Assembly: GCF_004145405.1 (NCBI RefSeq)
Contig: NZ_SELQ01000002.1
Coordinates: 62,001 to 126,000, forward strand
DNA length: 64,000 nucleotides
Source of the DNA: Salipiger sp. IMCC34102
GTDB lineage: Bacteria > Pseudomonadota > Alphaproteobacteria > Rhodobacterales > Rhodobacteraceae
Direction: 5' to 3'
In this document: in pieces, positions 38,561 through 54,183 of the stretch
How the letters are laid out: each line of letters begins with the position of its first letter
Position numbering within the stretch: position 1 is the stretch's first letter
Position numbers and translations under genes: made by a program
The notes under the pieces: generated by a model
What the model was told of the DNA's origin: nothing
The model's input: the letters and a program-made list of their open reading frames with translations, nothing else
Databases searched by the model: none

Positions 38561-41500
38561 TCAGTGGAAATCCCGGCTTTTCGGCACGATCCGCGCATCA
38601 CGCGGGTGGCTCTGGCCCGAGGCGGGCAGGGGCTTTCGCACGTGATCGGCGCGCGCCAGCGTGGTGGGCATGGCATCGGGCGCCAGCCGCAGCAGCGCGT
38701 CCGACCGGTCGGTCAGCGTCATCGCGACCACGTGCACGACATCCGCGTCGCGCTGGATATAACCTTCGACCGCCAGCAGGCGCGAGGTCATGACCGCCTT
38801 GCGGAAGGTCTCCATCACCGCGGGCCAGACCACCAGGTTGGCCACGCCGAACTCGTCTTCCAGCGTGATGAAGCAGACCCCCTTGGCGCTGCCGGGACGC
38901 TGACGGATCAGCACGATGCCCGCGATCTTGATGCGTTGGCGGTGGTGCATGCGCGCCAGATCGGCGGTGCTGCGGTAGCCCTGCCGCGTCATGGACTTGC
39001 GCAGGAACGAGATCGGGTGCGCCTTCAGCGACAGCCGCAGGGTCTGGTAATCGGCCACCACCTGCTCGCAGACCGGCATGACGGGAAGCGGCACGGTCAC
39101 CTCGGTGCCTTCGTCGGTGCCGTCCCGGAACAGCGGCAGGTCGGGGGCGTCGCGCAGGCCCTTGGCCTCCCACAGGGCCTGCCTGCGGTCGATCCAGAGC
39201 GAGCGGACCGCATCCGCCTCGGCCAGCCGCCGCACGATGGGCGCGGTCAGGCGCGCACGGACGTGCAGGTCCTTGACGTCCCGGTAAGGGGTGTCGCGGG
39301 CCGCCACCAGCCGATCCGCGGCGTCCCGGCGCAGCCCGCCGATCTGGCGCATGCCCAGCCGGATCGCGAAGCGGGGCGGGGGCGGGGCATCCTGGTCCCA
39401 GACCACATCGGAGGAGGCGTTTTCGCGCGCCCCCTGCGCCTCCGGGGGCGCTGGCGGACCCGACAGCGCGCGGTCGCGCGCGCGCGCCGGCGACAGCCCC
39501 GATCCGTAGAGGCTCGTCGCCACGGGCTCCAGCGTGTTGTCCCAGTCGGAGTAGTTCACGTCCACGCCCCGCACCTCGACCCCGTGGGCCTGGGCGTCGC
39601 GCACGAGCTGTGCCGGCGCGTAGAAACCCATGGGCTGGGAATTGAGCAAGGCCGCGGTGAAGGCCGCCGGAAAATGATGCTTGAGCCAGCAGGAGACATA
39701 GACCAGCTGCGCGAAACTGGCCGCGTGGCTTTCGGGGAATCCGTATTCGCCGAAGCCCTTGATCTGGTCGAAACAACGCTGCGCGAACTCCGGATCGTAG
39801 CCGCGGCGGGCCATCCGGCCGACCATCTTTTCCTGCAACAGCTCGATCTGGCCGCGGCTGCGGAAGGTGGCCATGGCCTTGCGCAACTCGTTGGCTTCGG
39901 CGGGGCTGAACTCGGCGGCGTCGATGGCGATCTTCATCGCCTGTTCCTGGAAGATCGGAACCCCCAGCGTGCGCCCGAGGATGTTCTTGAGCTCCGACGG
40001 GTCATGGGGCGCGCCGGGCGAGGGGTAGCTGACCGGTTCCTGCCCCGAGCGGCGGCGCAGGTAGGGGTGGACCATGTCGCCCTGAATGGGGCCGGGGCGG
40101 ACGATGGCGACCTCGATCACCAGGTCGTAGAACGTGCGCGGCTGCAGGCGTGGCAGCATGTTCATCTGCGCACGGCTCTCGATCTGGAAGACGCCCACCG
40201 TGTCGCCGCGGCAGACCATGTCATAGACGCGCGGGTCCTCCTGCGGGATCGTGGCGAGCGACCAGTCCTGCCCGTAATGCGCCCGCACGAGGTCAAAGCA
40301 CTTGCGGATGCAGGTCAGCATCCCCAGCGCCAGGATATCGACCTTGAGGATCCCCAGCGCGTCGATGTCGTCCTTGTCCCATTCGATGAAGGTGCGGTCG
40401 GGCATGGCGCCGTTGCCGATGGGCACCGTCTCGGTCAGTTTCTTCTGGGTCAGGATGAAGCCGCCCACGTGCTGGCCCAAGTGGCGCGGCATCCCGATCA
40501 TCTGCCCCGCCACGATCAGCGCGCGCCGCACGGTCGGGTCGGTCAGATCGACGCCCGCCTCGTCGGCGTTCTTCTGCGCCATCTCGCGCCCGAAACTGCC
40601 CCAGACGGTCTTGGCGAGCGCCCCGGTCACGTCCTCGGAGAGGCCCATCACCTTGCCCACCTCGCGAATGGCCGAGCGCGGGCGGTAGTGGATTACGGTG
40701 GCACAAAGCCCCGCGCGGTCGCGGCCGTATTTGTTGTAGATATGCTGGATCACCTCCTCGCGCCGTTCGTGTTCGAAGTCGACGTCGATGTCGGGCGGCT
40801 CGCGGCGCTCCTCGCTGATGAACCGCTCGAACAAAAGCGCGTGCTGCGCGGGGTCCACGGCGGTGATCCCCAGCACGTAGCACACGGCCGAATTCGCCGC
40901 CGATCCGCGTCCCTGGCACAGGATCGGCGGGTCCGCCTCTTCGCGGGCGAAGCGGATGATGTCGTGGATCGTCAGGAAATACTGCGCGATATCGAGCTTC
41001 TCGATCATCGCGAGTTCCTTGGCGAGCGTGGCGCGGGTGGCCTTTGGCACGCCGTCCGGATAGCGCTCCGCAGCCCCGTCCCAGGTCAGTTGTTCGAGGT
41101 AGGCCTGGGCGGACATCTCCTGCGGGATCACCTCGGAGGGGTATTCGTAGGCCAGTTCCGTCAGCGTGAACCGGCAGGCGTCGGCCACGGTACGCGTGGC
41201 CGAGATGGCATGCGGCCATTCGGCAAAGAGACGCTGCATCTCGGCGGGTGACTTGAGGTGCCGTTCGGCGTTGGCCTCCAGCAGGTAGCCCGCCCGCGCA
41301 AGCGTGGTCTTGTGGCGGATGCAGGTCATCACGTCCTGCAGGGGGCGACGGTCGGGCGCGTGGTAGAGCACCTCGTTCGTGGCCAGAAGCCCCATCCCGT
41401 GCTGCCCGGCCAGGGCATCCAGCCGGTTGATTCGCGCCCGGTCGTCCCCGCGGTAGAGATAGCTCGCAGCGATATGGGACAGCGTCGGCAGCCGGCGGAC

Positions 41501-42001
41501 GAGGCGCGGCAGATCGCGGGCGAAGCCGTCGAGGTCGGGGGGCGGCACGACGATCAGCTGCACCCCCGCGGCATGCGCCGCCAGATCCCCCAGCGTCAGA
41601 TCGCAGACCCCCTTGGCCTGCCAGCGGCCTTGCGCATCGTGCATCCGCCCCTTGGAAATCAGCGCACTCAGCCGGCCGTAGGCCGCCCGGTCGCGCGGGT
41701 AGGCCAGAAAGGTCTCGCCGGTGCGAAGCGCGATCCGCGCGCCGATGACGGGTCTCAACTTCGCCGTATTCGCCTCGGTATGGAGGCGCACCACGCCGGC
41801 GAGCGAATTCAGATCCGCGCAGCCCAGCGCATCGTAGCCCAGCGCCCAGGCCTCCATCGCCAGATCGACCGCGTCGGAGGCGCCCCGGAGGAACGAAAAG
41901 CAGGTGAAGACTCCCAGCTCGACGAAGGGACTGCGCGGATTGGGCGTGAAATCGCCGTCTTCCGGCAGGCTCCGACGGGGGATCTGGTCATTTTGGGGCA
42001 T
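38561..42001 (-). CDS. dnaE2: Error-prone DNA polymerase DnaE2
   Basis: DnaE2 is the C-family polymerase that, with ImuA and ImuB, carries out SOS mutagenic translesion synthesis. The roughly 1146-residue protein has the PHP domain at about 25-290, with FVELGVFTCFSFLRGAS. The polymerase palm and fingers follow with CQGRGSAANSAVCYVLGIT, RREPPDIDVDFEHERREE and FGEYGFPESHAASFA, and a C-terminal OB fold (IAGIVLIRQRPGSAKG). It is shorter than replicative DnaE1, as expected for DnaE2. I chose the ATG at 42001 (MPQNDQ) over a TTG seven codons earlier. It is the distal gene of the imuA-imuB-dnaE2 operon, separated from imuB by 273 bases of inverted repeats. Confidence 0.95.
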   Translation of the reverse strand: MPQNDQIPRRSLPEDGDFTPNPRSPFVELGVFTCFSFLRGASDAVDLAMEAWALGYDALGCADLNSLAGVVRLHTEANTAKLRPVIGARIALRTGETFLAYPRDRAAYGRLSALISKGRMHDAQGRWQAKGVCDLTLGDLAAHAAGVQLIVVPPPDLDGFARDLPRLVRRLPTLSHIAASYLYRGDDRARINRLDALAGQHGMGLLATNEVLYHAPDRRPLQDVMTCIRHKTTLARAGYLLEANAERHLKSPAEMQRLFAEWPHAISATRTVADACRFTLTELAYEYPSEVIPQEMSAQAYLEQLTWDGAAERYPDGVPKATRATLAKELAMIEKLDIAQYFLTIHDIIRFAREEADPPILCQGRGSAANSAVCYVLGITAVDPAQHALLFERFISEERREPPDIDVDFEHERREEVIQHIYNKYGRDRAGLCATVIHYRPRSAIREVGKVMGLSEDVTGALAKTVWGSFGREMAQKNADEAGVDLTDPTVRRALIVAGQMIGMPRHLGQHVGGFILTQKKLTETVPIGNGAMPDRTFIEWDKDDIDALGILKVDILALGMLTCIRKCFDLVRAHYGQDWSLATIPQEDPRVYDMVCRGDTVGVFQIESRAQMNMLPRLQPRTFYDLVIEVAIVRPGPIQGDMVHPYLRRRSGQEPVSYPSPGAPHDPSELKNILGRTLGVPIFQEQAMKIAIDAAEFSPAEANELRKAMATFRSRGQIELLQEKMVGRMARRGYDPEFAQRCFDQIKGFGEYGFPESHAASFAQLVYVSCWLKHHFPAAFTAALLNSQPMGFYAPAQLVRDAQAHGVEVRGVDVNYSDWDNTLEPVATSLYGSGLSPARARDRALSGPPAPPEAQGARENASSDVVWDQDAPPPPRFAIRLGMRQIGGLRRDAADRLVAARDTPYRDVKDLHVRARLTAPIVRRLAEADAVRSLWIDRRQALWEAKGLRDAPDLPLFRDGTDEGTEVTVPLPVMPVCEQVVADYQTLRLSLKAHPISFLRKSMTRQGYRSTADLARMHHRQRIKIAGIVLIRQRPGSAKGVCFITLEDEFGVANLVVWPAVMETFRKAVMTSRLLAVEGYIQRDADVVHVVAMTLTDRSDALLRLAPDAMPTTLARADHVRKPLPASGQSHPRDARIVPKSRDFH

Positions 42002-42022
42002 CGCGGGTGATCCCCGACGCAA

Positions 42023-42083
42023 GGGGGGCCAGCCCCCCCGGACCTGCGGTCCGTCCCCCCGGGATATTTTTGGCCAGAAGAAG
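42023..42083 (+). repeat. Intergenic repeat family, copy R2 (plus orientation)
   Basis: The copy runs GGGGGGCCAGCCCCCCC, then CCCCCCGGGATATTTTT, then GGCCAGAAGAAG. Its last 28 or so bases are perfectly inverted at 42,208-42,262. It starts 21 bases upstream of the dnaE2 ATG on the opposite strand sense and is present in the untranslated part of the imuB-dnaE2 transcript. Confidence 0.8.
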
Positions 42084-42098
42084 CCCCCCGCGGATCCA

Positions 42099-42130
42099 GC
42101 GTCCCGCCTTCGGGTGGAAGGACGGGACGC
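42099..42130. repeat. Perfect eight-base hairpin inside the imuB-dnaE2 spacer
   Basis: GCGTCCCG (42099-42106) and CGGGACGC (42123-42130) form a perfect stem around a 16-base loop. It lies between the two facing repeat copies R2 and R2', forming the inner part of a nested foldback. Confidence 0.6.
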
Positions 42131-42207
42131 CTTCTCCTGGCGCGGTCATCGGCGTCCCCGCCTGTACCGCCTGCAAAGCGTCGCACCGAGTGGTTAACGA
42201 ACCCTTA

Positions 42208-42262
42208 CTTCTTCTGGCCAAAAATATCCCGGGGGAGCCCGAAGGGCGGGGGCAGAGCCCCC
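42208..42262 (-). repeat. Intergenic repeat family, copy R2' (inverted)
   Basis: Read on the minus strand, it is GGGGCTCTGCCCCCGCCC, TTCGGGCTCCCCCGGGATATT and TTTGGCCAGAAGAAG. This matches the copy at 44,891-44,946 over its full length and the 3' half of the copy at 42,023. It begins just after the imuB stop codon, reading in the transcript direction. Confidence 0.8.
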
Positions 42263-42274
42263 TGTCGACGCAGG

Positions 42275-44101
42275 TCACGCAAAACACCCGTGGACGAACC
42301 AGCGCGGGGTCTCACCGCGGTCGTCGCCAAGCACGCCGTCACGGTAGATCCACAGGCGGTGGCCGGATTGCGCCTCGATCCGGTAGTAGTCGCGCAGGCG
42401 GGTGCCGGGGCAGTCCGTCCACCATTCCGGCGCGATCCGCTCGGGCCCCGCGAAACGGGTGATGCGCTGGGTCTGGCGGCGCCAGACGAATTGTGCAGGC
42501 GGGCCTTCGGGAACGGCGTAGAGGACACGGATCTCCTCGGGGCTGTCGAAAAGGGTCACGGGGCGGGCAGGCGCGGGCAGAGTGCCGGTGTCCGGGGCGA
42601 GGCCGGACATGGCGGGCAGCCAGTGTTCGGCCCGGTCGGGCATGTGTCGTGGCCGCGGGGCGGGGATCTGGACGGCCGCGTGGCCCAGCCGGGCCACCAG
42701 CCGGTCGATCAGCTTGGCACGGGCGGCGCTCTCGTCCGCGCGCCCGTCGAGACGGGTCTGCACCCGGGCCAGATCCTCGGCCTCGTTCGCTTCCAGCGTG
42801 ATCAGATCGAAGCCGAAGCCGGGGTCGATCCGCTCCAGCCGGTCGCCCCACAGCCGCATGAGGTGCGCGGGATCGCGGGTCGGGCGGGCGGTGGCGGCGG
42901 TTATGCGCGAGACTTCCCCATCGGTGCGGTAGACGGCGATGGTCAGGCGCCGTGCCCCGAAGCCCGCCTGTTCGAGGGCCGCACAGAGATCCGTGCAGAG
43001 ATCCGGCAAATGCGGCGCCGGGTCCTGCACCGGTTCGGCCAGCCGGGCCTGGACCGCGAAGGACGGCGGTTCGGTCTCGGCGCTGACGGGTTCGGGCAGG
43101 CGGCCCTGCAACTGGTCGAGCCGGGCGAGCGGGTTCTGCGGCAGGGCCGTGGTGGCGAAACGCCGGGCCAGGCTGGCGCGGGGCACGGCGCAGAGGTCCC
43201 CCACGGTCTTGAGGCCCAGGCGCTGCAGCAGCAGTACCGTTTCGGCATCGAGCCGCAAGGCGCGGGTCGGCAGCGGGGCCGTGGCCTGTGCCAGCGTGTC
43301 CGGTGTCGCCACGGTGCGGACGGGACCGTAGCGGGCCAGCGCCCAGGCGGCTCCATGGGTCGGCGCCATCGCCAGCCGGGTGGACAGGCCCAGCAGGCTG
43401 AACCGGCCTTCGATCTCGCGCAGCATGGCGGCCTCACCGCCCCAGAGATGGGCGGATCCGGTGGTGTCCAGCACCAGGCCGTCCTCGCCGTCGGGCGCCG
43501 TCCAGGGACACCAGCGGCGTGCCCAGAAGCTCAGGCGGCGCAGGGTGGCGCGGTCGCCCTCGGGATCCGCCGGCTCGACCCGGATCTGCGGGCAGAGCGC
43601 ACGGATATCGACGACCCGTGCTCCGGGAATGATCCCCTGGAGGGCGCCGGCACGATTGGTGGCATGGACGACGGGGCCATGCGGTCCTTCGGTGGCCAGG
43701 ACCACGGGCAGATCCTCGGGCGGGGCATCCTGGCGGCCTTCGGCCCAGCGCAGCCAGCGGGCCATGGGCAGATCCTCGAAGACGAGGCTGACGATGCGCC
43801 GCGACAGCGGATCGCGCGCCGTCTTGGTGCGGCTCGGCACATCCTGCCCGTCCTTGCGCTGATCGGGATCCGCCGTGGCGCCCTGGATGTGGTCCGCGTG
43901 CTGGATCGGGGCGGCGGGGAACAGCGGCGTGGAGTCCTGCCGGGACCCGGGCGTCTCGCAAGGCGCGCGGTGGGCCCAGGTGCTTTCGACCTGTTGCAGG
44001 GCCGTCAGCGCCCGGGACAGACCTGTCCGGGGCGACGGACCCTGATCCCCCGAGGAGGCCTGCGCAGATCGAAGGGCGCGGGATTCGTCCACCACGTCCA
44101 T
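42275..44101 (-). CDS. imuB: ImuB, Y-family polymerase-like mutasome protein with DUF6504 tail
   Basis: ImuB is the catalytically inactive Y-family homologue that links DnaE2 to the beta clamp. The 608-residue protein has a roughly 100-residue N-terminal stretch without recognisable domain. The Y-family body follows from about 103 (RRIVSLVFEDLPMARWL), with LPTRALRLDAETVLLLQRLG and TVGDLCAVPRASLARRF helix-hairpin-helix regions. The C-terminal DUF6504-like module has ITRFAGPERIAPEWW and RDYYRIEAQSGHRLWIYRDG. The expected catalytic acidic residues of the first palm motif are absent (FEDLPMARW in place of DMDAFF). The ATG lies one base after the imuA stop. Confidence 0.9.
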   Translation of the reverse strand: MDVVDESRALRSAQASSGDQGPSPRTGLSRALTALQQVESTWAHRAPCETPGSRQDSTPLFPAAPIQHADHIQGATADPDQRKDGQDVPSRTKTARDPLSRRIVSLVFEDLPMARWLRWAEGRQDAPPEDLPVVLATEGPHGPVVHATNRAGALQGIIPGARVVDIRALCPQIRVEPADPEGDRATLRRLSFWARRWCPWTAPDGEDGLVLDTTGSAHLWGGEAAMLREIEGRFSLLGLSTRLAMAPTHGAAWALARYGPVRTVATPDTLAQATAPLPTRALRLDAETVLLLQRLGLKTVGDLCAVPRASLARRFATTALPQNPLARLDQLQGRLPEPVSAETEPPSFAVQARLAEPVQDPAPHLPDLCTDLCAALEQAGFGARRLTIAVYRTDGEVSRITAATARPTRDPAHLMRLWGDRLERIDPGFGFDLITLEANEAEDLARVQTRLDGRADESAARAKLIDRLVARLGHAAVQIPAPRPRHMPDRAEHWLPAMSGLAPDTGTLPAPARPVTLFDSPEEIRVLYAVPEGPPAQFVWRRQTQRITRFAGPERIAPEWWTDCPGTRLRDYYRIEAQSGHRLWIYRDGVLGDDRGETPRWFVHGCFA

Positions 44102-44102
44102 C

Positions 44103-44753
44103 TCAGGCGGTGGCGCGCTGTGGCGCCTGTGCGGCGACGGGGTGCGTCAGGCTCAGCGCGCCGTCCGCCGGCTGGGCGACCCAGGTGCCGGGCGCGCGGC
44201 TGCGGGCGCGAAAGAGCTCCGCCTGCCATTGCGGAACGCCAGGCGCGCGCGCGTCGTAGGGGTCGGGCAGGGCCGGCAGCGCGCCGATACGCCAGCGCAG
44301 GCGTGCGGCACTCAGGTTCGCGGTCGCGGCCCGGCGCAGCAGCAGGGCGGGGGTGGCCCGGGCTTCCGCCCGCAGGGCGATGCGCTTGGTGGCGGTGAAG
44401 TCGAGCACGGCCGGATCGCCCCAGACCTCCGCGATGACGGCGCAGATGCCGTCGCTGTAGAGCGATTCCTCCATCGACCAGAGCACGTCCACGGGGCGGT
44501 TGGCGCGCACGTAAAGCAGCTTCAGACCGCGCGGCAGGCCCGCGATGCAAGGGCGCCCCGCCTCGCGCCGGGACAGGCGGTCCTGGATCCAGACCACGGG
44601 GCGGGGATCTTCCGCGAACCGGGCCAGCTGGGCGCAGGCAAAGCCCGTGACGGCACCGTCCAGCGTGCTGGTGGCGAAGAGTTCCGACAAGGTGGGCTCC
44701 GCCCCCGAGGGGGCGTCGGTCGCGTCGGGAAGAGGGTCAGACAGGCGTGTCAC
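44103..44753 (-). CDS. imuA: ImuA, RecA-like SOS mutasome protein
   Basis: ImuA is the RecA/SulA-like accessory factor of the ImuA-ImuB-DnaE2 translesion system. The 216-residue protein has the short P-loop-less RecA-like core: TLDGAVTGFACAQLARF, VVWIQDRLSRREAGRP, the LLYVRANRPVDVLWSMEESLYSDG segment (given in part) and TKRIALRAEARATPALLLRR, which match the ImuA family in alphaproteobacteria. The start is a GTG at 44753 with only a weak ribosome-binding site. It is the first gene of the operon and lies 22 bases downstream of the LexA box. Confidence 0.88.
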   Translation of the reverse strand: MTRLSDPLPDATDAPSGAEPTLSELFATSTLDGAVTGFACAQLARFAEDPRPVVWIQDRLSRREAGRPCIAGLPRGLKLLYVRANRPVDVLWSMEESLYSDGICAVIAEVWGDPAVLDFTATKRIALRAEARATPALLLRRAATANLSAARLRWRIGALPALPDPYDARAPGVPQWQAELFRARSRAPGTWVAQPADGALSLTHPVAAQAPQRATA

Positions 44754-44774
44754 GGGGCAGATCCGATTCCGTTT

Positions 44775-44814
44775 GTTCCTGTTATGTTCTAATCCGATTC
44801 CCGGTTTCGGTCAA
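44775..44814 (-). promoter_or_regulatory. SOS promoter with LexA box for imuA-imuB-dnaE2
   Basis: On the plus strand, GTTC-CTGTTAT-GTTC occupies 44775-44789. This is an exact match to the alphaproteobacterial LexA box GTTC-N7-GTTC (GAAC-N7-GAAC in the gene direction). On the minus strand, TTGACC (44814-44809), a 17-base spacer and TAGAAC (44791-44786) form a good promoter. The first GAAC of the box is inside the -10 hexamer, so bound LexA should block RNA polymerase directly. Confidence 0.88.
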
Positions 44815-44890
44815 TTTGAGTCGCGCCTGCTGCCCGGATAAACCGGTGTAAGGTACTGGCAAAGGATTGAAAATTTCGACACGAAAAAAC

Positions 44891-44946
44891 GGGGCTCTGC
44901 CCCCGCCCGTGCCGGGCTCCCCCGGGATATTTCGGGCCAGAAGAAG
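44891..44946 (+). repeat. Intergenic repeat family, copy R3 (plus orientation)
   Basis: The copy is GGGGCTCTGCCCCCGCCC, GTGCCGGGCTCCCCCGGG and ATATTTCGGGCCAGAAGAAG. It is nearly identical to the inverted copy at 42,208-42,262 and lies between the imuA promoter and the end of the flavin reductase gene. It marks the boundary between the SOS operon and the sulfonate-type cluster. Confidence 0.8.
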
Positions 44947-44969
44947 CCCCAAGCCCGATCTTGCCGCGG

Positions 44970-45488
44970 TTACGCGTCGTCCTGGGGCTGGAACGCGCCG
45001 TAGCGTCCGCCGTGGAAGACGAGGGGGGCGCCGCCGGTATGGTGGGCCTTCGTGACCTCGCCCACGACGATGACGTGATCGCCCGCATCGTGGGTTGCGG
45101 ACAGGGTGCATTCGAAGGTCGCGAGCGCGCCTTCGATGATCGGCATCCCGCAATGGGACAGGTGCATCGGCACCTTCGAGATCGCGGTCTTGGAGCCGAT
45201 GATCGCGGCACAGACGTCGCGCTGGTCGGCGGCGAGGACATGGACCGCAAAGCGGCGCGCGCCCGCGAAATGTTCGAACCGCCGGCTGGACTTGGCAGGC
45301 GACCACAGCACCAGCGGCGGATCGAGGCTGACGGACGCGAAGCTGTTGGCCACGATCCCCACGGGCCCTTCGGCACTGTCGGTGGTCACCACGGTCACGC
45401 CGGTCACGAAGGACCCCAGCGCGCCGCGAAAGCTGTCGGGATCGCTGGCCGGATCGAAGGTCGCGATGGTGCCGCTGTCCCTGCTCAT
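44970..45488 (-). CDS. Flavin reductase (FMN reductase of two-component monooxygenase; SmoA-like)
   Basis: This 172-residue protein of the flavin-reductase-like split-barrel family reduces FMN with NAD(P)H. FRGALGSFVTGVTVVTT, the GIVANSFASVSLDPPLVLWSPAKSS flavin-binding region (given in part), FAVHVLAADQ and a C-terminal HGGRYGAF are family hallmarks. It overlaps the aldo/keto reductase gene by four bases and is third in a unit headed by an SsuD-like monooxygenase. It should therefore supply reduced FMN to that enzyme. In sulfoquinovose monooxygenase clusters the equivalent gene is called smoA; equivalence here is inferred from context. Confidence 0.88.
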   Translation of the reverse strand: MSRDSGTIATFDPASDPDSFRGALGSFVTGVTVVTTDSAEGPVGIVANSFASVSLDPPLVLWSPAKSSRRFEHFAGARRFAVHVLAADQRDVCAAIIGSKTAISKVPMHLSHCGMPIIEGALATFECTLSATHDAGDHVIVVGEVTKAHHTGGAPLVFHGGRYGAFQPQDDA

Positions 45489-46378
45489 GCCACCTCTTCC
45501 CCGCGCGCGGCGGTGTAGAGCGTGAACCAGTCGGTCCGGCTGAGATCAACCTCAAGAGCGTCGCCCAAGGCCTTGATGCGGCTCAGATTGTTCGTGCCCA
45601 TCACCGGCAGGATACGGGCCGGATGCGCCAGCAGGAAGGCCGTCGCCACGGCGGCGCGGTCGGTGCCGGTGTCCTGCGCGATGCGGTCCAGCTCTGCCGC
45701 GAGGGCGGCATTCGATCCGTCCATCAGCGCACCACCCCCCAGCGGGGACCAGGCCATGACCGGTTTGTCCAGCCGCTGCAGATGGGCCAGGTCGCCGTTC
45801 ACGAAAGCCTCCCGCGCGGCGAGCGACAGTTCGATCTGGTTGGTGGCGAGCGTGGTCTCCATCGCCGATTGGAGCAGGTTCCAGTCCCAGGGGCGGAAGT
45901 TCGACACGCCCACCGCGCGCACCTTGCCTGCGGCCACGAGGTCGTCGAGCGTGCGGCCCGTCTCGTAATGATCCATCAGCGGATCGGGACGGTGGATGAG
46001 CAGAAGATCGATCCGATCCAGCCCCATCAGCGACAGCGAGGCGTCGACGGAGGCCTCGATATGCGCGCGGCTGGTGTCGTAATGTTTCACCGGTGCCCCC
46101 GCATGGCGGCCCGCGTCGATGACGATGTCGCACTTGGTGACGATCTCGATTCGGTCGCGCAGCCCGGGGGATTGCTTCAGCGCCTGCCCCAGGATCTCCT
46201 CGGCCATGTAGCCGCCGTAGATGTCGGCCTGGTCCATGGTGGTGATGCCCTGATCGAGGCAGGCCTCGATCTTGGACTGCACATGGGCGGGCGAGGTGTC
46301 GGCGTCATCGCCCAGGCGCCACATGCCGTAGACGATGCGGCTGAAATCCAGCTCGTCGGTGATCGATACGCGGTCCAT
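45485..46378 (-). CDS. Aldo/keto reductase (SmoB-like, possible 6-oxo-glucose reductase)
   Basis: The product is a 297-residue NADPH-dependent TIM-barrel oxidoreductase. The catalytic Asp/Tyr lie in TTMDQADIYGGYMAEE, the Lys in EIVTKCDI, and the His in DLLLIHRPDPLMD, so the tetrad is complete. The C-terminal LPVMGTNNLSRIKAL binds cofactor. It starts immediately after the monooxygenase stop, with no gap, and overlaps the flavin reductase. A sugar-aldehyde reductase between these two enzymes is the arrangement of smoC-smoB-smoA, where SmoB reduces 6-oxo-glucose to glucose; that role is inferred. The sequence alone also fits general YdhF-type reductases. Confidence 0.85.
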   Translation of the reverse strand: MDRVSITDELDFSRIVYGMWRLGDDADTSPAHVQSKIEACLDQGITTMDQADIYGGYMAEEILGQALKQSPGLRDRIEIVTKCDIVIDAGRHAGAPVKHYDTSRAHIEASVDASLSLMGLDRIDLLLIHRPDPLMDHYETGRTLDDLVAAGKVRAVGVSNFRPWDWNLLQSAMETTLATNQIELSLAAREAFVNGDLAHLQRLDKPVMAWSPLGGGALMDGSNAALAAELDRIAQDTGTDRAAVATAFLLAHPARILPVMGTNNLSRIKALGDALEVDLSRTDWFTLYTAARGEEVA

Positions 46379-47539
46379 CTAGCGGCGCTCTCCTGTGCCC
46401 AAGGGGGTGGCGGGTGGCTCGGACGGCACCCGTCCGTAGACATGGGGCAGCGAGCAGGTTTTCAACTCCGGCAGGACCCGCGATCCGAAATGCCGGGCCT
46501 CCTCGATATGCGGGTAGCCCGAGAAGATGAAGGCACGGATCCCCATCTTGCGATAGGCCTCGATCTTGCTCAGCACCTGATCGGTGGATCCGACCAGCGC
46601 CGCACCGCAGCCCGAACGGGCGCGCCCGATGCCGGTCCACAAACCCGGCTCCACATAGCCGAACTTGTCGGCCAACTCGCGGGCGCGGGCCTGGTGGGCC
46701 ACGCCGAGAGAGGTGGAATCATGCGCCCGGTCGCGGATCAGCGTGCCGTATTCGTCGTCGAGCTGGCTGGCCAGATGCTCGGCATATTCCTTGGCCTCGG
46801 CCTCGGTGTCGCGGACGATCATGTGCACCCGCAGCCCGTACTCGAGCGTGCGGCCGTGCTCTTCGGCGCGGGCATGGACGTCGCGCATCCGCTGCGCGAG
46901 CTGGTCCATCGGTTCGGGCCACATCAGGTAGACGTCGCAATGCGCGCCGCAGAGTTCCAGCGCGGCGGGCGAGTAGCCGCCGAAGTACAACAGCGGCCCG
47001 CCGGTCTGGTAGGGCTTGGCGGGATCGGTGGATACGCCTTTGAAGTCATAGACTTCGCCGGTGAAGTTGATCTCGTCCCGCGTCCAGGCCTGCTTGAGGA
47101 TCTGCACGACCTCGTGGCTGCGCCGGTAGCGGAAGGCGCTCTCGGCCACCTCACCGGGGAAATCGGAGGAGATCACGTTCAGCGTCAGCCGCCCTTCGAG
47201 CATGTGATCGAGCGTGGCGACGGTGCGCGCCAGCATGATCGGCTGCATCTCGCCGCAGCGGATCGCGGCGAGGAAGTTCATGCGGGAGGTCAGCGGGGCC
47301 ATGCCGGCCACGTAGCTCAGCGTGTCCTGGCCCACCTGGAAGGACGAGGGGCACAGGATGTTGTTGAAGCCTTGGCGCTCCGCCTCCAGGCCGATGTCGC
47401 GGCAATGCGCCCAGGACGAGCGCAGATCGCCCTCCGGCACGCCGAGCAGGCGGTAATCGTCGGAGCAGAGCGCGGAGAACCAAGACACTTCGGAAGCGTC
47501 GAGGTCGGGGCTGGTGATGGGCACGATTGTATCTGTCAT
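46379..47539 (-). CDS. SsuD-like FMNH2-dependent sulfonate monooxygenase (SmoC-like)
   Basis: This 386-residue luciferase-type (LLM) monooxygenase is predicted to split a C-S bond, releasing sulfite and an aldehyde. It aligns by eye along its length with alkanesulfonate monooxygenase SsuD: LYFGGYSP, YLMWPEP (Trp207), YGLRVHMIVRD (Arg237, His239), GIGRARSGCGAALVG and FIFSGYPHIEEA (His344). These residues are shared by SsuD and sulfoquinovose monooxygenase, so they do not separate the two. The neighbours, a sugar-type reductase, a flavin reductase and a Gfo/Idh/MocA enzyme, favour a sugar sulfonate. It is the first gene of its unit, divergent from the GntR gene. Confidence 0.86.
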   Translation of the reverse strand: MTDTIVPITSPDLDASEVSWFSALCSDDYRLLGVPEGDLRSSWAHCRDIGLEAERQGFNNILCPSSFQVGQDTLSYVAGMAPLTSRMNFLAAIRCGEMQPIMLARTVATLDHMLEGRLTLNVISSDFPGEVAESAFRYRRSHEVVQILKQAWTRDEINFTGEVYDFKGVSTDPAKPYQTGGPLLYFGGYSPAALELCGAHCDVYLMWPEPMDQLAQRMRDVHARAEEHGRTLEYGLRVHMIVRDTEAEAKEYAEHLASQLDDEYGTLIRDRAHDSTSLGVAHQARARELADKFGYVEPGLWTGIGRARSGCGAALVGSTDQVLSKIEAYRKMGIRAFIFSGYPHIEEARHFGSRVLPELKTCSLPHVYGRVPSEPPATPLGTGERR

Positions 47540-47566
47540 GGGTCTTGCGTAGCACGGGGGCAGGGG

Positions 47567-47588
47567 TGTAGCAATCCTGTATCAATTC
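47567..47588. promoter_or_regulatory. Candidate operator: tandem 11-base direct repeat in the divergent promoter
   Basis: TGTAGCAATCC is followed directly by TGTATCAATTC, identical at 9 of 11 positions, in the 59-base gap between the monooxygenase and GntR genes. The 11-base period places both copies on one face of the helix. It is a plausible site for the adjacent GntR-family repressor to control both directions. Confidence 0.35.
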
Positions 47589-47598
47589 GAGGCGACCC

Positions 47599-48291
47599 GT
47601 GGCGCAAACCCTTCCCAGATACCTGTCGATCAGCGAGCGGCTGGTGCGCGAGATCGCGGCCGGTCTCTGGGCCGACGGCACCCGCCTGCCGCCAGAGCGC
47701 GAGATGGCGGCGGATCTGGGCGCCTCGGTCGGCACCCTGCGCAAGGCCTTGGCGGACCTGACCGAAAAGGGTCTGCTGGAACGGCGCCAGGGATCGGGAA
47801 ACTACGTGCGGCACCGCACCGACGTGACCTCGATCTACGGGTTCTTCCGGCTGGAACTGCCGCGCGGCGGGGGGCTGCCATCCGCGCGGATCCTGTCGAC
47901 CGGGCTTCACGCAGCACCCCCTCTCGCACCGGCGGGTTGGGGCGGCGAAGGATTTCGCCTGCGCCGTGCCCGCGCGCTCGACGACACCCCCGTCGCGGCG
48001 GAGGAGATCTGGCTGAGCCCGACGCATGCGATCCCCGACCGTGCGCTGGGGCCCTCGCTCTACCGTGTCTACCGCGAGCTTTTCGGGATCATCGTGGCCC
48101 GGGTCGAGGACCGCATCGACCTCGGCCGTGCCCCCGGCTGGATGCCCGAGGGGACCACCCTGTCGCCGGGCGATCCGTGCTGTCACGTCGCGCGCACCGC
48201 CTTCGATTCGACCGGGCAGATCGTCGAGATCTCGTCCACATGGGTGGATACCACCCGTGCCAAATATGTATCCCGCGTAGGAGCCGGCTGA
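47599..48291 (+). CDS. GntR-family regulator, HutC/UTRA subfamily
   Basis: The 230-residue protein has an N-terminal winged helix at residues 6-75: RLVREIAAGLWADGTRLPPEREMAADLG (given in part), SVGTLRKALADLTEKGLLERRQGSGNYV. A UTRA-type effector domain follows from about 90 with RRARALDDTPVAAEEIWLS and a C-terminal IVEISSTWVDTTRAKYV. Such regulators usually repress adjacent catabolic operons until a sugar or related metabolite binds. The GTG at 47599 has GAGG upstream. It directly adjoins the oxidoreductase gene and diverges from the monooxygenase unit, so it is the likely local regulator. Confidence 0.9.
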   Translation: MAQTLPRYLSISERLVREIAAGLWADGTRLPPEREMAADLGASVGTLRKALADLTEKGLLERRQGSGNYVRHRTDVTSIYGFFRLELPRGGGLPSARILSTGLHAAPPLAPAGWGGEGFRLRRARALDDTPVAAEEIWLSPTHAIPDRALGPSLYRVYRELFGIIVARVEDRIDLGRAPGWMPEGTTLSPGDPCCHVARTAFDSTGQIVEISSTWVDTTRAKYVSRVGAG

Positions 48292-49380
48292 ATGCCTCGT
48301 CCCCTGAAATACGGCCTGATCGGCTGCGGCATGATGGGCCGCGAGCACATCCAGAACATCGCCCTGCTGGACGACGCCCGCGTCGCGGCCGTCTACGATC
48401 CGGTAGAGGCGCTGGCCGCGTCCGCCGCCGAACTGGCAGGCGGGGCGCGGGTGGCTGCTTCGATCGACGATCTTCTGGCCGAGGAAGCGCTCGACGCGGT
48501 CGTGCTGGTCAGCCCCAACGATTGCCACGCCGACCAGTTGCGGCAGGTGACGGCGCTGCCCGTCGCGGTGCTGTGCGAAAAGCCGCTCTACATCGATCCC
48601 GCCGACGCGGACGAGCTCGCGACCCTGGCCGCGCGGCATCCCGCGCCGATCTGGGTCGCGATGGAATACCGCTACATGCCGCCCATCGCAGCCTTCCTCG
48701 CACAGGCGCAGGAGGCCACGGGCGGGATCAGGATGCTCACGATCCGGGAGCATCGTTTCCCCTTCCTGCCCAAGATCGGCAACTGGAACCGCTTCAACGC
48801 GCGCTCCGGCGGGACGCTGGTCGAGAAGTGCTGCCATTTCTTCGATCTCATGCGCCTCGCACTGGGGTCCGATCCGGTGCGGGTGATGGCCTCGGGATCG
48901 GCGGACGTGAACCACCTCGACGAACGCTACGACGGCGCCGCCCCCGACATCTGGGACAACGCCTACGTCATCGTCGATTTCGCCTCCGGTCAGCGGGCGA
49001 TGCTGGAATTGTGCATGTTCGCCGAAGGCGCGCGCTTCCAGGAGGAGATCACCGCCACGGGTCCCAATGGCCGGATCGAGGCGCAGGTGCCAGGGCCCGG
49101 CCGGTTCTGGCCCAAGGACCTCGGCCCCGCGCCGACGCCGCTGCTGACCATCAGCCCGCGCAACCCCCGGGGGCCCTACACGGCCGAGATCCCAGTCGAC
49201 CCGCACCTGCTGGAGGCGGGCGATCACAACGGATCGACCTTCTACCAGCACCAGCGCTTCGCCGCCGCCGTGCGCGGCGAAGGGCCGGTCGAGGTTTCGG
49301 TCACCGACGGAAGCTGGGCGGTGCGCATAGGTCAGGCGGCGCAGACCTCGGCCCTGACGGGGCAGTCGGTCACGTTCTGA
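48292..49380 (+). CDS. Gfo/Idh/MocA family NAD-dependent oxidoreductase
   Basis: The 362-residue protein has an N-terminal Rossmann fold with the dinucleotide motif LIGCGMMGREH, the EKP loop in AVLCEKPLYI, and a C-terminal alpha/beta sugar-binding domain including GGTLVEKCCHFFDLMRLALG and RFQEEITATGPNGRIEAQ. The family includes sugar dehydrogenases and NAD-dependent glycosidases (GH109, GH179, GH188). Members of GH188 are NAD-dependent sulfoquinovosidases, so here it may release sulfoquinovose from glycosides or oxidise a sugar. This is inference from the neighbouring sulfonate-type monooxygenase. The ATG follows the GntR stop with no gap. Confidence 0.85.
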   Translation: MPRPLKYGLIGCGMMGREHIQNIALLDDARVAAVYDPVEALAASAAELAGGARVAASIDDLLAEEALDAVVLVSPNDCHADQLRQVTALPVAVLCEKPLYIDPADADELATLAARHPAPIWVAMEYRYMPPIAAFLAQAQEATGGIRMLTIREHRFPFLPKIGNWNRFNARSGGTLVEKCCHFFDLMRLALGSDPVRVMASGSADVNHLDERYDGAAPDIWDNAYVIVDFASGQRAMLELCMFAEGARFQEEITATGPNGRIEAQVPGPGRFWPKDLGPAPTPLLTISPRNPRGPYTAEIPVDPHLLEAGDHNGSTFYQHQRFAAAVRGEGPVEVSVTDGSWAVRIGQAAQTSALTGQSVTF

Positions 49381-49431: not shown

Positions 49432-49998
49432 TCAGCTTGCCAGGCTGCGGGAAATTTCCTCGGCCAGCCGCGTGATGGCAAGCCCCTGGGCCGCCACGGC
49501 GCCGGGGATGTCGGGGGTCGCCATCGGGATCGTGTAGCTGAAGCTCTCCGCGCTGTTGGGATAGTCGATCCCGTCACCGCCGATGAAATACTGCCCCGAC
49601 ATCACGAAGTTGCCGGTCACGGCGCTGCCCAGCATCTGCGAGACGCGCACGTCGACCACCACGTCCGCAAGCCCCGGGAAGGGCCAGGGATCGGGGCTGA
49701 CGATGGCGCTGAGGATCCCGTCCATCTGGCGCGACAGCGACAGGGTGACCGCCCGGGACGGCTCGTCCGCGGCCAGAAGATCCCCGTCGGAGCTGATCAC
49801 CCCCGGCGCGGTCTCGATCCCCAGCTCCTCGGTCGCGGCGTAGGTGGGCAGCGTCACGTCGCGCACCACGACGGAGCCTACGTTCGCGCGCAGGTTCAGC
49901 GCGGGTTCCGGCGTCGGCATGTCCAGGCGGGTGATCGTGCTGCCGCAGGCGGCAAGCGCGGTCAGGCCGAGGGCCGCGAGAAGGATCGTTCTGGTCAT
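49432..49998 (-). CDS. pqiC: PqiC-family outer-membrane lipoprotein (ABC-type transport auxiliary)
   Basis: The 188-residue protein begins with a lipoprotein signal (MTRTILLAALGLTALAACGS, lipidated Cys18). The mature part has LNLRANVGSVVVRDVTLPTYA and a central VVVDVRVSQMLGSAV, as in the PqiC/YmbA family. In E. coli PqiC docks on PqiB at the outer membrane. Its ATG lies just 3 bases after the pqiB stop. It is the last gene of the pqi-type operon and is convergent with the oxidoreductase gene. Confidence 0.85.
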   Translation of the reverse strand: MTRTILLAALGLTALAACGSTITRLDMPTPEPALNLRANVGSVVVRDVTLPTYAATEELGIETAPGVISSDGDLLAADEPSRAVTLSLSRQMDGILSAIVSPDPWPFPGLADVVVDVRVSQMLGSAVTGNFVMSGQYFIGGDGIDYPNSAESFSYTIPMATPDIPGAVAAQGLAITRLAEEISRSLAS

Positions 49999-50001
49999 GG
50001 G

Positions 50002-52791
50002 TTATCGCCCCGTCAGCAAGGAGTTGGGATTGCGCTGGATCTGGCGGGCCAGCGTGGTGATGGCATCCGCCGCGGTCTGAAGGTCGCGCAGGGTCTGCTG
50101 CAGTTCCGCATCGACGCGCGATCCGGTGCCGTAGCTGCCGATGGTGGTATTGGCGGTGCCGATCAGCCCGCGCGCCTCGGACGTGAAGGCGGGCAGGGTG
50201 GCGGCGGCCACCTCGATCGCGTCCGCCGCGTCCGACGCCGATTGCAGGGCCGCGTTCACGTTCTCGATCGCGCCGCCTTCGCGCACGTCCGCAAGGATCA
50301 GCTGCAGCTCGTCCAGGGCCGAGGACAACGACGCGGGCAGGGCCTGCGCCGAAGGCGTCCCGGTGATCGCCGAGATGTCGTCGAGCACACCCGTCGCCGC
50401 CGCCGAAAGCGCGTCGAGGTCCATCCGCGCGGCCTCCGCCGAAAGCTGGTTCAATTGCTCGGTGATCGCGGGCAGCTGGGCCGAAGCGGTCTCGATGTTC
50501 TCCGCCGCGGTGGCCGCCGCCGCGATGGCGTTGGTCAACTGGCCGCTGATGTTCTGCGCGGTCAAATCCGACAGGATCTGGCCCGCTTCCCCCGTCACGC
50601 TGCGCAACTCGCCCGGCAGGGCCTGCACGTCACCCGATTCGACCAGCAACCGGACCTCTTCCAGCAGCTGGTTCACGAAGACCGGCACCTCCGCCAGGTC
50701 GTCGTTGGAGGCCACGGCCTCCACGCTGGCGAGGGCCTGGTCGGCCTGGGTCAGCAGCGCCTCGAGCTCCAGCGCGTTGAGCTTCGCCAGCGTCGCCTCG
50801 AGCTGGTCGGAGATCTGCGGCAGGTTCGCCGTGCCGTCCTCGACATTGGTGAGGATCGCACCGGCCTGGCCCACGACGTTGTTGTCCTCGATGCTCTGCA
50901 CGATGCCCAGCAGGCCGCCCGCGGTGTCCTGGACCTGCGCCAGCAGCGCGCTGACCTGCCCCGGAACCGCCTGCACCCCTTCGGAGGCGACGAGCGCCTG
51001 CGCCTCGGCCAGAAGCTGGTTCAGGAAGACCGGCACTTCCGCAAGGTCGTCGTTCGAGGCGACCCCCTCCACCGCGACCAGCGCGGCATTGGCCTGCGCC
51101 ACCAGCGCCTGCAGTTCCAGCTCGTTGACCTTGGCCAGCGTCGCTTCGAGTTCCGTGGTGATCTGCGACAGGTTCTGCGTGCCGCCTTCGACGTTGCTCA
51201 GGATGGTGCCGGTCTGGCCCACGATGTCCGCATCCTCGACGCTCTGGACGACGCCCAGAAGGCCCGCGGCGGTGTCCTGCAGCTGCGCCAGCAGATCGGC
51301 GATCTGCGTGGGCACCTGCTGCACGGGCTCGGAGTCGACGAAATCGCGCACGTCCGCAAGCAGGCCCGCGACCTGTTCGGGGGTGTCCAGCACACCGTCC
51401 GACCGAAGGATCGCGTTGGCGCTGTCCATCACGTCGATCGCCGAGGCCAGCAGATCCTCGATCGGCAGATCGTTGATCCGGGCGAGCACGCCCTGCGCCT
51501 CGTCGGCGACGTCGGTGATCTGTGACGCGGTGCTGGGGATGATCGGGTAGGGCTCCGCCTCGGTGTCGAGCACCACGGGCAGCGCATCCGCGACCTCCAC
51601 CAGTTCGACGATCAGCCCGCCGGACAGGATGTTTCCGGTCGCCAGCCGCGCCCGCAGGCCCTGGTCGACGAAACTGGCAAGCAGGTCGAGCGCGTTCTCC
51701 GGCGTGGCCTCGTCGCCCAGGCCAAGCCGGGCGGGTTCGATCGACAGGATGGTGCGCAGGTCGATCCGGGTGTCCTCGGGCGCCTCGCCCGAGACGACCG
51801 TGGCACCGAGGTCGGTGACCTGGCCGATGCGGATGCCCTGGTAGCGCACGTCCGAGCCCACCGTCAGGCCGCTGACCGACCCGTCGAACAGCACCGCCAC
51901 CTGCAGCTTGGGCGCGCCCGCGTCGTTGAAGAGGCTCGACCGGGCGCTTTCCTCGTCGGTGAACAGATCGAAGATCTGCCCGTCCTCGATCGGCTCCCCG
52001 CCCGAGACGACGGTGTCGAAGGCCACACCGCCCTCGATCAGAGAGGCCAGGGACGAGACGTTCAACGACACGCCGCTTGCGCCAAGGCTCACGCTGAAGC
52101 CCGCGGTGTCCCAGAACCGGGTGGAGGAGGTGATGAGCGCGTCGTAGGGTTCGCGCACGAAGGCGGCCACGGTCACCGATTGCCCGTCATCGGACAGGAC
52201 CGGATCGGACAGGACGCCCACCTCGATCCCCTGGTGCAGGATCGGCGCCCCTGCCGACAGGGCGGTGCCTTCGTCGGTGCGCAGCACCAGCTCGGTGCCG
52301 CGCTGTCCGGGCGGGACCACCGGCGGCGTCTCGAGCCCCTGGAACCGGTCCTGCGGATCGCCCGAAACCTCGTTCCAGTTGCCCTGGATGTAGACCCCCG
52401 ACAGCACCGTATCGAGACCAGAGATCCCGCGCACGCTCACGTCGGGGCGCACCACCCAGAACCGCGCATCCTCGTCCATGTAGGCATGGACCGGCTGATC
52501 GACGCGGGCGTAGACCAGCACGTCCTGCAGGTCGCGCGTGAATTCGACCCGCTCGACCCGGCCCACGACCACGTCGCGGTAGCGGATCTCGGTCTCTCCC
52601 GCGACGATGCCGGAGGCGTTCTCGAAGGTGATCTCGATCTCGACGCCCAGGTCCTGAAAGGACTGCCACGCCACGCCGAGCGAGACCACGAGCGCCAGGA
52701 TCGGCACGAGCCAGACGAAGGACAGCCGCCGCCAGATGCTGGGTTTCGATTGGCGCACGTCCAGGTCCGAGGCTTGGTTCGTCTCACTCAT
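50002..52791 (-). CDS. pqiB: PqiB-like MCE protein with extended repeat-built helical needle
   Basis: PqiB is thought to form a tunnel across the periplasm for lipid movement between membranes. The 929-residue protein has one N-terminal membrane helix (about 22-43). Three MCE (MlaD) domains follow at about 45-145, 155-250 and 290-400, with FENASGIVAGETEIRYRD and VGSDVRYQGIRIGQV. A long alpha-helical C-terminal part follows. Residues 493-608 and 609-724 are tandem 116-residue repeats, 67% identical by count, with weaker copies on both sides. E. coli PqiB is about 546 residues, so the needle here is far longer. The ATG at 52791 overlaps the pqiA2 stop. Confidence 0.9.
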   Translation of the reverse strand: MSETNQASDLDVRQSKPSIWRRLSFVWLVPILALVVSLGVAWQSFQDLGVEIEITFENASGIVAGETEIRYRDVVVGRVERVEFTRDLQDVLVYARVDQPVHAYMDEDARFWVVRPDVSVRGISGLDTVLSGVYIQGNWNEVSGDPQDRFQGLETPPVVPPGQRGTELVLRTDEGTALSAGAPILHQGIEVGVLSDPVLSDDGQSVTVAAFVREPYDALITSSTRFWDTAGFSVSLGASGVSLNVSSLASLIEGGVAFDTVVSGGEPIEDGQIFDLFTDEESARSSLFNDAGAPKLQVAVLFDGSVSGLTVGSDVRYQGIRIGQVTDLGATVVSGEAPEDTRIDLRTILSIEPARLGLGDEATPENALDLLASFVDQGLRARLATGNILSGGLIVELVEVADALPVVLDTEAEPYPIIPSTASQITDVADEAQGVLARINDLPIEDLLASAIDVMDSANAILRSDGVLDTPEQVAGLLADVRDFVDSEPVQQVPTQIADLLAQLQDTAAGLLGVVQSVEDADIVGQTGTILSNVEGGTQNLSQITTELEATLAKVNELELQALVAQANAALVAVEGVASNDDLAEVPVFLNQLLAEAQALVASEGVQAVPGQVSALLAQVQDTAGGLLGIVQSIEDNNVVGQAGAILTNVEDGTANLPQISDQLEATLAKLNALELEALLTQADQALASVEAVASNDDLAEVPVFVNQLLEEVRLLVESGDVQALPGELRSVTGEAGQILSDLTAQNISGQLTNAIAAAATAAENIETASAQLPAITEQLNQLSAEAARMDLDALSAAATGVLDDISAITGTPSAQALPASLSSALDELQLILADVREGGAIENVNAALQSASDAADAIEVAAATLPAFTSEARGLIGTANTTIGSYGTGSRVDAELQQTLRDLQTAADAITTLARQIQRNPNSLLTGR
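50620..51315 (-). repeat. Tandem 348-base repeat inside pqiB
   Basis: Two in-frame 348-base units (51315-50968 and 50967-50620) encode 116-residue modules starting VPTQIADLLAQ and VPGQVSALLAQ. They share LLAQxQDTAxGLLG, LEATLAK and ASNDDLAEVPVF; 78 of 116 residues agree by hand count. They extend the helical needle. Confidence 0.85.
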
Positions 52792-53461
52792 GCGCGGTCG
52801 GTCCTTCTGCATCCCAGATCAGCCGCGGATCGAACGCCATGGCCGAAAGCATCGTGAAAATGACCGACAGCGCGAAGCTCAGCGCCGCGATGCCGGGATT
52901 GATGGTGGCAACGGCCTTCAACTGCACCAGGGCCGAGAGTATGGCAACGACGAAGACGTCGATCATCGACCAGCGGCCGATGAATTCGACCACGTCGTAT
53001 AGCTTGTGACGCCGGTGCGCGTTCGCCGGGCGACCGCGCTGCACGCTGATCGCGAGGTAGGCGATGGCGATGAACTTGCCGACCGGGATCATGACGGAGG
53101 CCGCGAAGACGATCCCCGCGATCCCGTAGTTGCCGTAGTGGATCAGTTCGATCACGCCGCCGACGATGGTCTGCTCGTCGTATTGGAACAGGCTTGCGGT
53201 GATCAGCATCGGGTAGACGTTGGCGGGTATGTAGGCGATCAGCCCCGCGATCAGCCAGGCCCAGACCTTCTGCAGGCTCTGCGTATCGCGCGATCGGATC
53301 GGGCCGTGGCAGCGTTGGCAGCGCACCGCGCGTCCCGCGTTGACCCGCCCGCAGCGACGGCAGGCGACGAGCCCCGCCGCCCGCGCGGTGGTCACCCCCG
53401 GTGGGATGCCGACGGGATCCGCGATCGGGGCGGTGACGGGCGTGTCGGGGGTGGTGCTCAC
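52784..53461 (-). CDS. PqiA-like membrane protein, second half (PqiA2)
   Basis: The 225-residue protein has an N-terminal zinc-ribbon-like pair (CRRCG at about 34 and CQRCHG at about 48). About four membrane helices follow, including LIAGLIAYIPANVYPML and YGIAGIVFAASVMIPVGKF, which is the repeat unit of PqiA. In E. coli two such units are fused in one protein of about 417 residues. Here the first half is the upstream gene. The GTG start at 53461 overlaps its stop (GTGA), so the halves are made together and probably assemble as a heterodimer. It overlaps pqiB by eight bases. Confidence 0.87.
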   Translation of the reverse strand: MSTTPDTPVTAPIADPVGIPPGVTTARAAGLVACRRCGRVNAGRAVRCQRCHGPIRSRDTQSLQKVWAWLIAGLIAYIPANVYPMLITASLFQYDEQTIVGGVIELIHYGNYGIAGIVFAASVMIPVGKFIAIAYLAISVQRGRPANAHRRHKLYDVVEFIGRWSMIDVFVVAILSALVQLKAVATINPGIAALSFALSVIFTMLSAMAFDPRLIWDAEGPTAHE

Positions 53462-54084
53462 ACCGCGCCCTCCCGCTCCAGCGCCTTCCAGATGCTCAAG
53501 CGGCTCATGACGCGGTCGTTGAAGAGCGTAATGATCACCAGCACCACGAAGGCCCAGAACGCCGGACCGATGGTGACCGTGGCCAGACCCACGATCTTGA
53601 CCAGCGCGACCGAGACGCCGACCATGAAGATCTCCGCCATGGCCCAGGGACGCAGCTGCTCGGTCATCGCGAAGGCCACGTGGGCGCCGCGCCGGGGGCG
53701 GTGACCCGTGACCAGCGGACCGATGGCGTAGATCAGCGCCAGCAGGCGGACCATGGGCAGCACGATGATGAAAAGCGCGACCGCCACGGCCAGCGGCACC
53801 CCGCGCCCTTCTGAGAAGGCCGTCACCGCGTTCAGCACCGAGGTCTGGTTCTCGAACCCCATCGCGTCGATGTCGATGAACGGAAAGCTGATCGCCGCCA
53901 CCAGCAGGATCACCCCCGCGATCGACAGGCTGAGAAGCTGCGTCAGCGCCTGCTTGCGCGGGGCGAACAGGACGACGCCGCAGCGCTTGCACCGCGCGAT
54001 GCTGCCGGGCGGCACCGGGGCGTCGATGTGCAGCGTGTCGCAGTGCGGACAGGCGATGAGATCTTCCAGGGGCGGCAGCGGCAT
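53458..54084 (-). CDS. PqiA-like membrane protein, first half (PqiA1)
   Basis: The 208-residue protein starts with a zinc-ribbon-like region, LIACPHCDTLH and ARCKRCG, then about four membrane helices containing LSLSIAGVILLVAAISFPF, VAVALFIIVLPMVRLLALIYA and the PqiA-type PWAMAEIFMVGVSVALVK (a known family signature). I chose the ATG at 54084 because it sits shortly before the first CxxC; an ATG at 54144 would add 20 residues. It is the first gene of the pqiA1-pqiA2-pqiB-pqiC operon and diverges from the fumarylacetoacetate-hydrolase gene across 99 bases. Confidence 0.87.
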   Translation of the reverse strand: MPLPPLEDLIACPHCDTLHIDAPVPPGSIARCKRCGVVLFAPRKQALTQLLSLSIAGVILLVAAISFPFIDIDAMGFENQTSVLNAVTAFSEGRGVPLAVAVALFIIVLPMVRLLALIYAIGPLVTGHRPRRGAHVAFAMTEQLRPWAMAEIFMVGVSVALVKIVGLATVTIGPAFWAFVVLVIITLFNDRVMSRLSIWKALEREGAV

Positions 54085-54183
54085 GATCCCGATGAGTGGA
54101 CGTCTGTCGACGAAAAAGGTGGCACTGGCGGGGCGGTGCTTCATATCCCGAAGCGACACCGACCCTAAACACGAACGATATCC

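Follow-up and report, generated by a model that had tools for sequence, protein, structure and literature searches.

Within a 64,000-nucleotide stretch of the genome of Salipiger sp. IMCC34102 (positions 62,001 to 126,000 of contig NZ_SELQ01000002.1; hereafter the window, in whose numbering all positions are given), five genes at 44970 to 49380 very probably constitute a sulfolytic (sulfo-SMO) locus of the Roseobacter type for the catabolism of sulfoquinovose (SQ), as judged from sequence. They form a minus-strand unit, smoC-smoB-smoA, and a divergent plus-strand unit that consists of a GntR-type regulator gene and a gene for a Gfo/Idh/MocA-type enzyme (sqgA). SQ is the sugar moiety of the sulfolipids of plants and algae and is among the largest organosulfur pools, and bacteria of the Roseobacter clade are reported SQ consumers. 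The comparison with related loci is more useful than the locus itself, as the importer of the tripartite ATP-independent periplasmic (TRAP) type that is the usual neighbour of sulfo-SMO genes proves to be repeatedly missing. The locus is one more genome for a pathway type that has been described, including the presence of glycoside hydrolase family GH188 in Roseobacter sulfo-SMO clusters, in the accessible part of PMC10755693.

The identification is carried foremost by the monooxygenase gene, smoC (46379-47539, minus strand, 386 aa, PF00296). Among solved structures its product matches 7olf at 720 bits and 7oh2 at 717. In a fold search with an AlphaFold model of the protein (mean pLDDT 74.7), the title of 7oh2, on oxidative desulfurization, ends 'of sulfoquinovose', and that of 7olf, from Agrobacterium tumefaciens, runs in the available record to 'oxidative desulfurization of sul'. 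An alkanesulfonate sulfur-scavenging operon of the SsuD or MsuD kind would draw on the same luciferase-like monooxygenase (LLM) superfamily; SsuD is clearly homologous, at 203 bits (1nqk, 1m41), MsuD (7jv3) follows at 201 and SfnG at 110, and a search of the genome brought up no SsuD-like gene besides smoC at E 0.001. Nevertheless, we consider such an operon hardly credible, given the far higher scores to the SQ enzymes, a score of 247.3 bits against the 518.2-bit cutoff of the curated SsuD equivalog (TIGR03565), the neighbouring GH188-type and aldo/keto reductase genes, and the lack of a sulfonate importer beside them. The SfnG equivalog (TIGR04021) is likewise missed, at 151.1 bits against a cutoff of 382.95, so that bit scores and curated cutoffs together rule out membership of either family. 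The first-pass annotation had proposed SQ desulfonation, to be abandoned if the monooxygenase clustered with SsuD or the dimethylsulfone enzymes; on these scores it groups with the SQ monooxygenases, and by orthology it is one.

The second line of evidence concerns the Gfo/Idh/MocA-type protein encoded by sqgA (48292-49380, plus strand, 362 aa, PF01408 and PF02894). Over its full length it scores 506 bits to 8zn9, 378 to 8qc3 and 374 to 8qc2, with the next family at 87 bits, and the same three entries rank first in a fold search; identity in the structural alignment is 62% to 8zn9, an entry titled 'A vast marine sulfonate-based carbon cycle fueled by novel sulfoquinovosidases', and 49% to the Flavobacterium and Arthrobacter enzymes. 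According to the accessible text of PMC10755693, GH188 has been known since 2023, is near-universal in Roseobacter sulfo-SMO clusters, and has nine named active-site residues, i.e. Arg166-Leu170-Lys172 (the sulfonate site), Lys107, Tyr136, Glu189, His193, His321 and Glu163; a note on GH188 subgroups, likewise accessible in part, gives the same sulfonate site (PMC11465081). Once the chain numbering is anchored on Arg166, eight of these residues agree in both 8qc2_A and 8qc3_A, and all eight are kept in the window protein (K97, Y126, R155, L159, K161, E178, H182 and H312) and are invariant in 17 aligned rows. A search for GH31 yielded no match in the genome, the same search being positive in 6 of 14 control genomes. 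By homology the protein is thus assigned as a GH188 NAD+-dependent sulfoquinovosidase, and the earlier guess that it replaces a GH31 enzyme was right.

The two remaining enzymes complete the putative pathway. The smoB product (45485-46378, minus strand, 297 aa, PF00248) is an aldo/keto reductase that would convert 6-oxo-glucose to glucose; it scores 428 bits to 7bby and 7bbz, the next best protein being at 215 bits. Both entries are named aryl-alcohol dehydrogenase in the PDB, and we take them to be SmoB. The smoA product (44970-45488, minus strand, 172 aa) is a predicted NAD(P)H-dependent flavin (FMN) reductase, an assignment at the family level (PF01613 at 131.6 bits) for a gene that overlaps smoB and is the third gene of the minus unit in 73 of 80 related loci. 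In the literature searched, no mention was found of the PDB codes 7OLF, 7OH2, 7BBY, 7BBZ or 8ZN9.

The five open reading frames (ORFs) are all uninterrupted and tightly packed: smoC (46379-47539) and smoB (45485-46378) abut, smoB and smoA overlap by 4 bp, the GntR and Gfo/Idh/MocA genes abut, and the divergent gap measures 59 bp. An ORF check and Pfam confirmed this cluster as first delineated, in every coordinate. According to the part of PMC13372026 that is available, a genome in which SmoB and SmoC are encoded close together is scored as sulfo-SMO positive, and the window has the two side by side. The same five genes in identical order and orientation were found in 73 of the 80 related loci, which argues that the arrangement is not due to chance; these loci are the best-scoring 80 of at least 577 confirmed relatives and are therefore no random sample, being biased towards the Rhodobacterales. 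Among the seven exceptions, two are cut by a contig end (L012, L043), one lacks a match to SmoB or SmoA (L021) and four lack a match to SmoA (L048, L068, L072, L077). The GH188 and GntR genes were found in all 80 (in L072 a contig end truncates the former). The five closest smoC genes all come from Loktanella records, which suggests a Loktanella affiliation of the genome itself. Within the family, 123 of 295 genomes, the window's own included, have a SmoC match at E 1e-150 or better.

From these similarities we infer the enzyme activities, the regulation and the transport of the locus as follows. Sulfoquinovosyl glycerol or SQ would enter the cell via some carrier, after which the GH188 enzyme would free SQ by a transient oxidation at C3 with NAD+. 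SmoC, supplied with FMNH2 by SmoA, would then oxidise C6 and thereby convert SQ to sulfite and 6-oxo-glucose, which SmoB would turn into glucose, and the GntR regulator would control both units from the 59-bp gap.

Several observations weigh against this interpretation. In the numbering that suits the other eight active-site residues, the published Glu163 lands on a Val in both PDB rows, the next residue being a Glu that corresponds to E153 in the window. The smoA product stays under every NCBIfam equivalog cutoff listed, the best being FerA with 191 against 260. In addition, there is a group of monooxygenases of about 50% identity (SmoC is matched at E 1e-90 in 21 of the 385 genomes of a class-wide draw, and 12 of these 21 are only 49-54% identical), and relatives of SmoC may have other substrates (see below); the protein encoded in the window is much nearer to SmoC itself. 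Finally, no importer stands beside the locus and no TRAP ortholog was found elsewhere in the genome, as a consequence of which growth on SQ is not assured.

As to the group of about 50% identity, the only locus opened, on a Rhizobium plasmid, has a relative of about 51% identity (L146:9992-11050) beside a LacI regulator and an ABC (ATP-binding cassette) sugar importer. No aldo/keto reductase is annotated in the 21 kb around it, which suggests that SmoC relatives may have other substrates, and this one possibly acts on a different compound. The window locus could serve a different sugar sulfonate, for instance sulfofucose or a sulfonated glycoside, the specificity of its enzymes being read from sequence; sulfofucose catabolism has been reported for a Paracoccus, via a different pathway (PMC12421959, accessible in part). 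Against this, the sulfonate-site and sugar-contact residues of the GH188 protein agree with the SQ complexes and SmoC is orthologous to the SQ enzymes, and we regard a substrate other than SQ as highly improbable.

The absence of an importer sets the window apart from most of its relatives. On the 3' side of smoA, the complete TRAP set (DctQ, DctM and DctP) is present in 55 of the 80 loci and part of it, before a contig end, in 3; another 19 lack it although 4 kb or more is available, and the last 3 are too short on that side to tell; that is, TRAP genes are present in 58 of 77 assessable loci and absent in 19. Their identity was confirmed with Pfam on the genes of L002. The same eight-gene order is annotated in four plasmid records, from Rhizobium, Ruegeria, Paracoccus and Roseivivax (five of 29 plasmid matches were opened, the fifth being of another kind). 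The two closest relatives, both Loktanella (L002 and L003), have their loci at the same chromosomal site as the window, between a pqiC-like gene and an imuA-imuB-dnaE2 cassette, with TRAP genes. Near these, L003 has, by Pfam, genes for a GH3 glycosidase and an FGGY carbohydrate kinase (L003:5701-8136 and L003:15975-17453, with similar ORFs in L002); both are missing at the window's site, where only 216 bp separate smoA, and 51 bp the GH188 gene, from the flanking genes. A relocated importer was looked for with the L002 proteins as queries and rejected: the top genomic hits reach 25-29% identity for DctP (six matches) and at most 47%, over partial stretches, for DctM, whereas L002 DctP and DctM are 69% and 81% identical to genes of more distant relatives.

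The simpler explanation would be that the TRAP genes were deleted in the lineage of the window, because TRAP genes are found across the SmoC tree. A straightforward history is made less likely by L019, which occupies this chromosomal site too, and by Loktanella atrilutea (L004), both of them TRAP-free as well. On the SmoC tree (a quick tree with SH-aLRT support only and 31 open forks of 79) the TRAP state requires 15 changes, 5 of which are forced by well-supported branches; shuffled labels require a mean of 18.0, and between 15 and 29 of 500 shuffles are as low. The TRAP state is thus only weakly clustered along the tree, and its loss or replacement looks recurrent, so that the importer-less form of the window is not unique. 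We tentatively propose, at somewhat less than even confidence, that the TRAP system beside smoCBA is the family's importer of SQ or sulfoquinovosyl glycerol and has been lost repeatedly, in lineages such as this one, while the enzymes were kept, an unlinked and differently regulated carrier taking over the uptake.

The missing importer could also mark a decaying, disused sulfo-SMO locus, the more so as no TRAP ortholog was found in the genome and as the end branch of the window's smoC, at 0.14, is the longest in its six-row Loktanella clade (0.029 to 0.062 for the others). However, the five ORFs, the eight active-site residues, the gene overlaps and the divergent motif (see below) are all intact, and importer-less loci recur among relatives (with the enzymes compared within aligned rows). 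We therefore consider decay unlikely.

For an ABC importer of the Agrobacterium type, the genome has 15 matches to the binding-protein family PF13416, 14 of them over the cutoff and none assigned. The lack of an ABC importer, which the first-pass annotation had read as a reduced variant, holds in that none is found beside the locus, but the usual neighbour in relatives is a TRAP and not an ABC system. Nor is a sulfite exporter linked to the locus, and the genome has no PF03601 match. Five unlinked matches to the TauE family and one PF00174 gene were found, none of them assigned to the exit of sulfite. In Rhizobium sp. SL42 (L138:15923-16882) and Ruegeria sp. TM1040 (L139:18076-19101), a gene annotated as 'putative sulfate exporter family', a candidate sulfite exporter, follows 3' of the TRAP genes. 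As for the literature, the accessible main text of PMC10755693 contains neither 'transporter' nor 'TRAP', the papers found to pair sulfoquinovose with a TRAP transporter appear to concern taurine-degrading gut bacteria, and nothing was found that pairs sulfoquinovose with Loktanella.

The regulator gene (47599-48291, plus strand, 230 aa, PF00392 and PF07702) encodes a GntR/UTRA protein of the HutC type, predicted to control the cluster, and has the same position and orientation in all 80 related loci. The putative divergent promoter/operator region (47540-47598, 59 bp) contains the motif TTGATACAGGATTGCTACA on the minus strand; its shorter form AATTGATA is present, on either strand, in 60 of 81 divergent gaps between smoC and the GntR gene. 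At up to 2 mismatches the longer motif, which was chosen by eye, has a single genomic occurrence, and a reversed-pattern control has none. The locus region yielded no match to a sigma-70 consensus promoter, and the motif may serve as promoter, as operator or as both. Should the GntR regulator bind there, the site would be shared with no distant importer; an unlinked importer co-regulated through this motif was rejected, only the cluster's own site being found, and any carrier that has taken over would be beyond the reach of the cluster's regulator.

The gap 3' of smoA (44754-44969, 216 bp), i.e. the site of the TRAP genes in close relatives, holds a terminator-like hairpin with a T-run (44887-44908, minus strand), which is a consensus match only; such sites number 6 in the 5-kb region, with 1.8 expected. 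An intergenic repeat resembling CGGGATATTTTTGGCC occurs at 42060, 42216 and 44923, three copies at up to 3 mismatches with 0.25 expected and as many in 1 of 100 shuffles; its weakest copy (3 mismatches) lies in this smoA-imuA gap. Beyond smoA, 38561-44753 resembles an SOS mutagenesis cassette with a dnaE2-like gene (PF07733, PF17657), an imuB-like gene (PF00817, weak) and, in the place of imuA, a 216-aa ORF that has no Pfam match, the three names being our own assumption. The other flank (49432-54216) carries a pqi-like set of a PF03886 lipoprotein, a PF02470 MlaD-type protein and a PF04403 PqiA.

Compared with known systems, the locus shares with the sulfo-SMO cluster of A. tumefaciens an orthologous SmoC, a matching aldo/keto reductase and a flavin reductase in the same unit. 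It differs in that a GH188 enzyme takes the place of GH31 and that an adjacent ABC importer is missing; the Agrobacterium cluster presumably carries both a GH31 sulfoquinovosidase and an ABC importer. The GH188 protein agrees with SqgA (8qc2, 8qc3) and the marine sulfoquinovosidase 8zn9 in full-length homology, fold and eight active-site residues, and differs from them to the extent of the identities given above. The closest likeness is to the Roseobacter-type clusters as described in the accessible part of PMC10755693, which likewise combine GH188 with SmoCBA in the absence of GH31. Here the window lacks the DctQ-DctM-DctP genes that 58 of the 77 assessable relatives possess and that the other 19 lack too. 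Since this importer is usual yet repeatedly missing, Loktanella strains that have the TRAP genes could be paired with strains that lack them, which makes the question of how the clade imports SQ directly testable.

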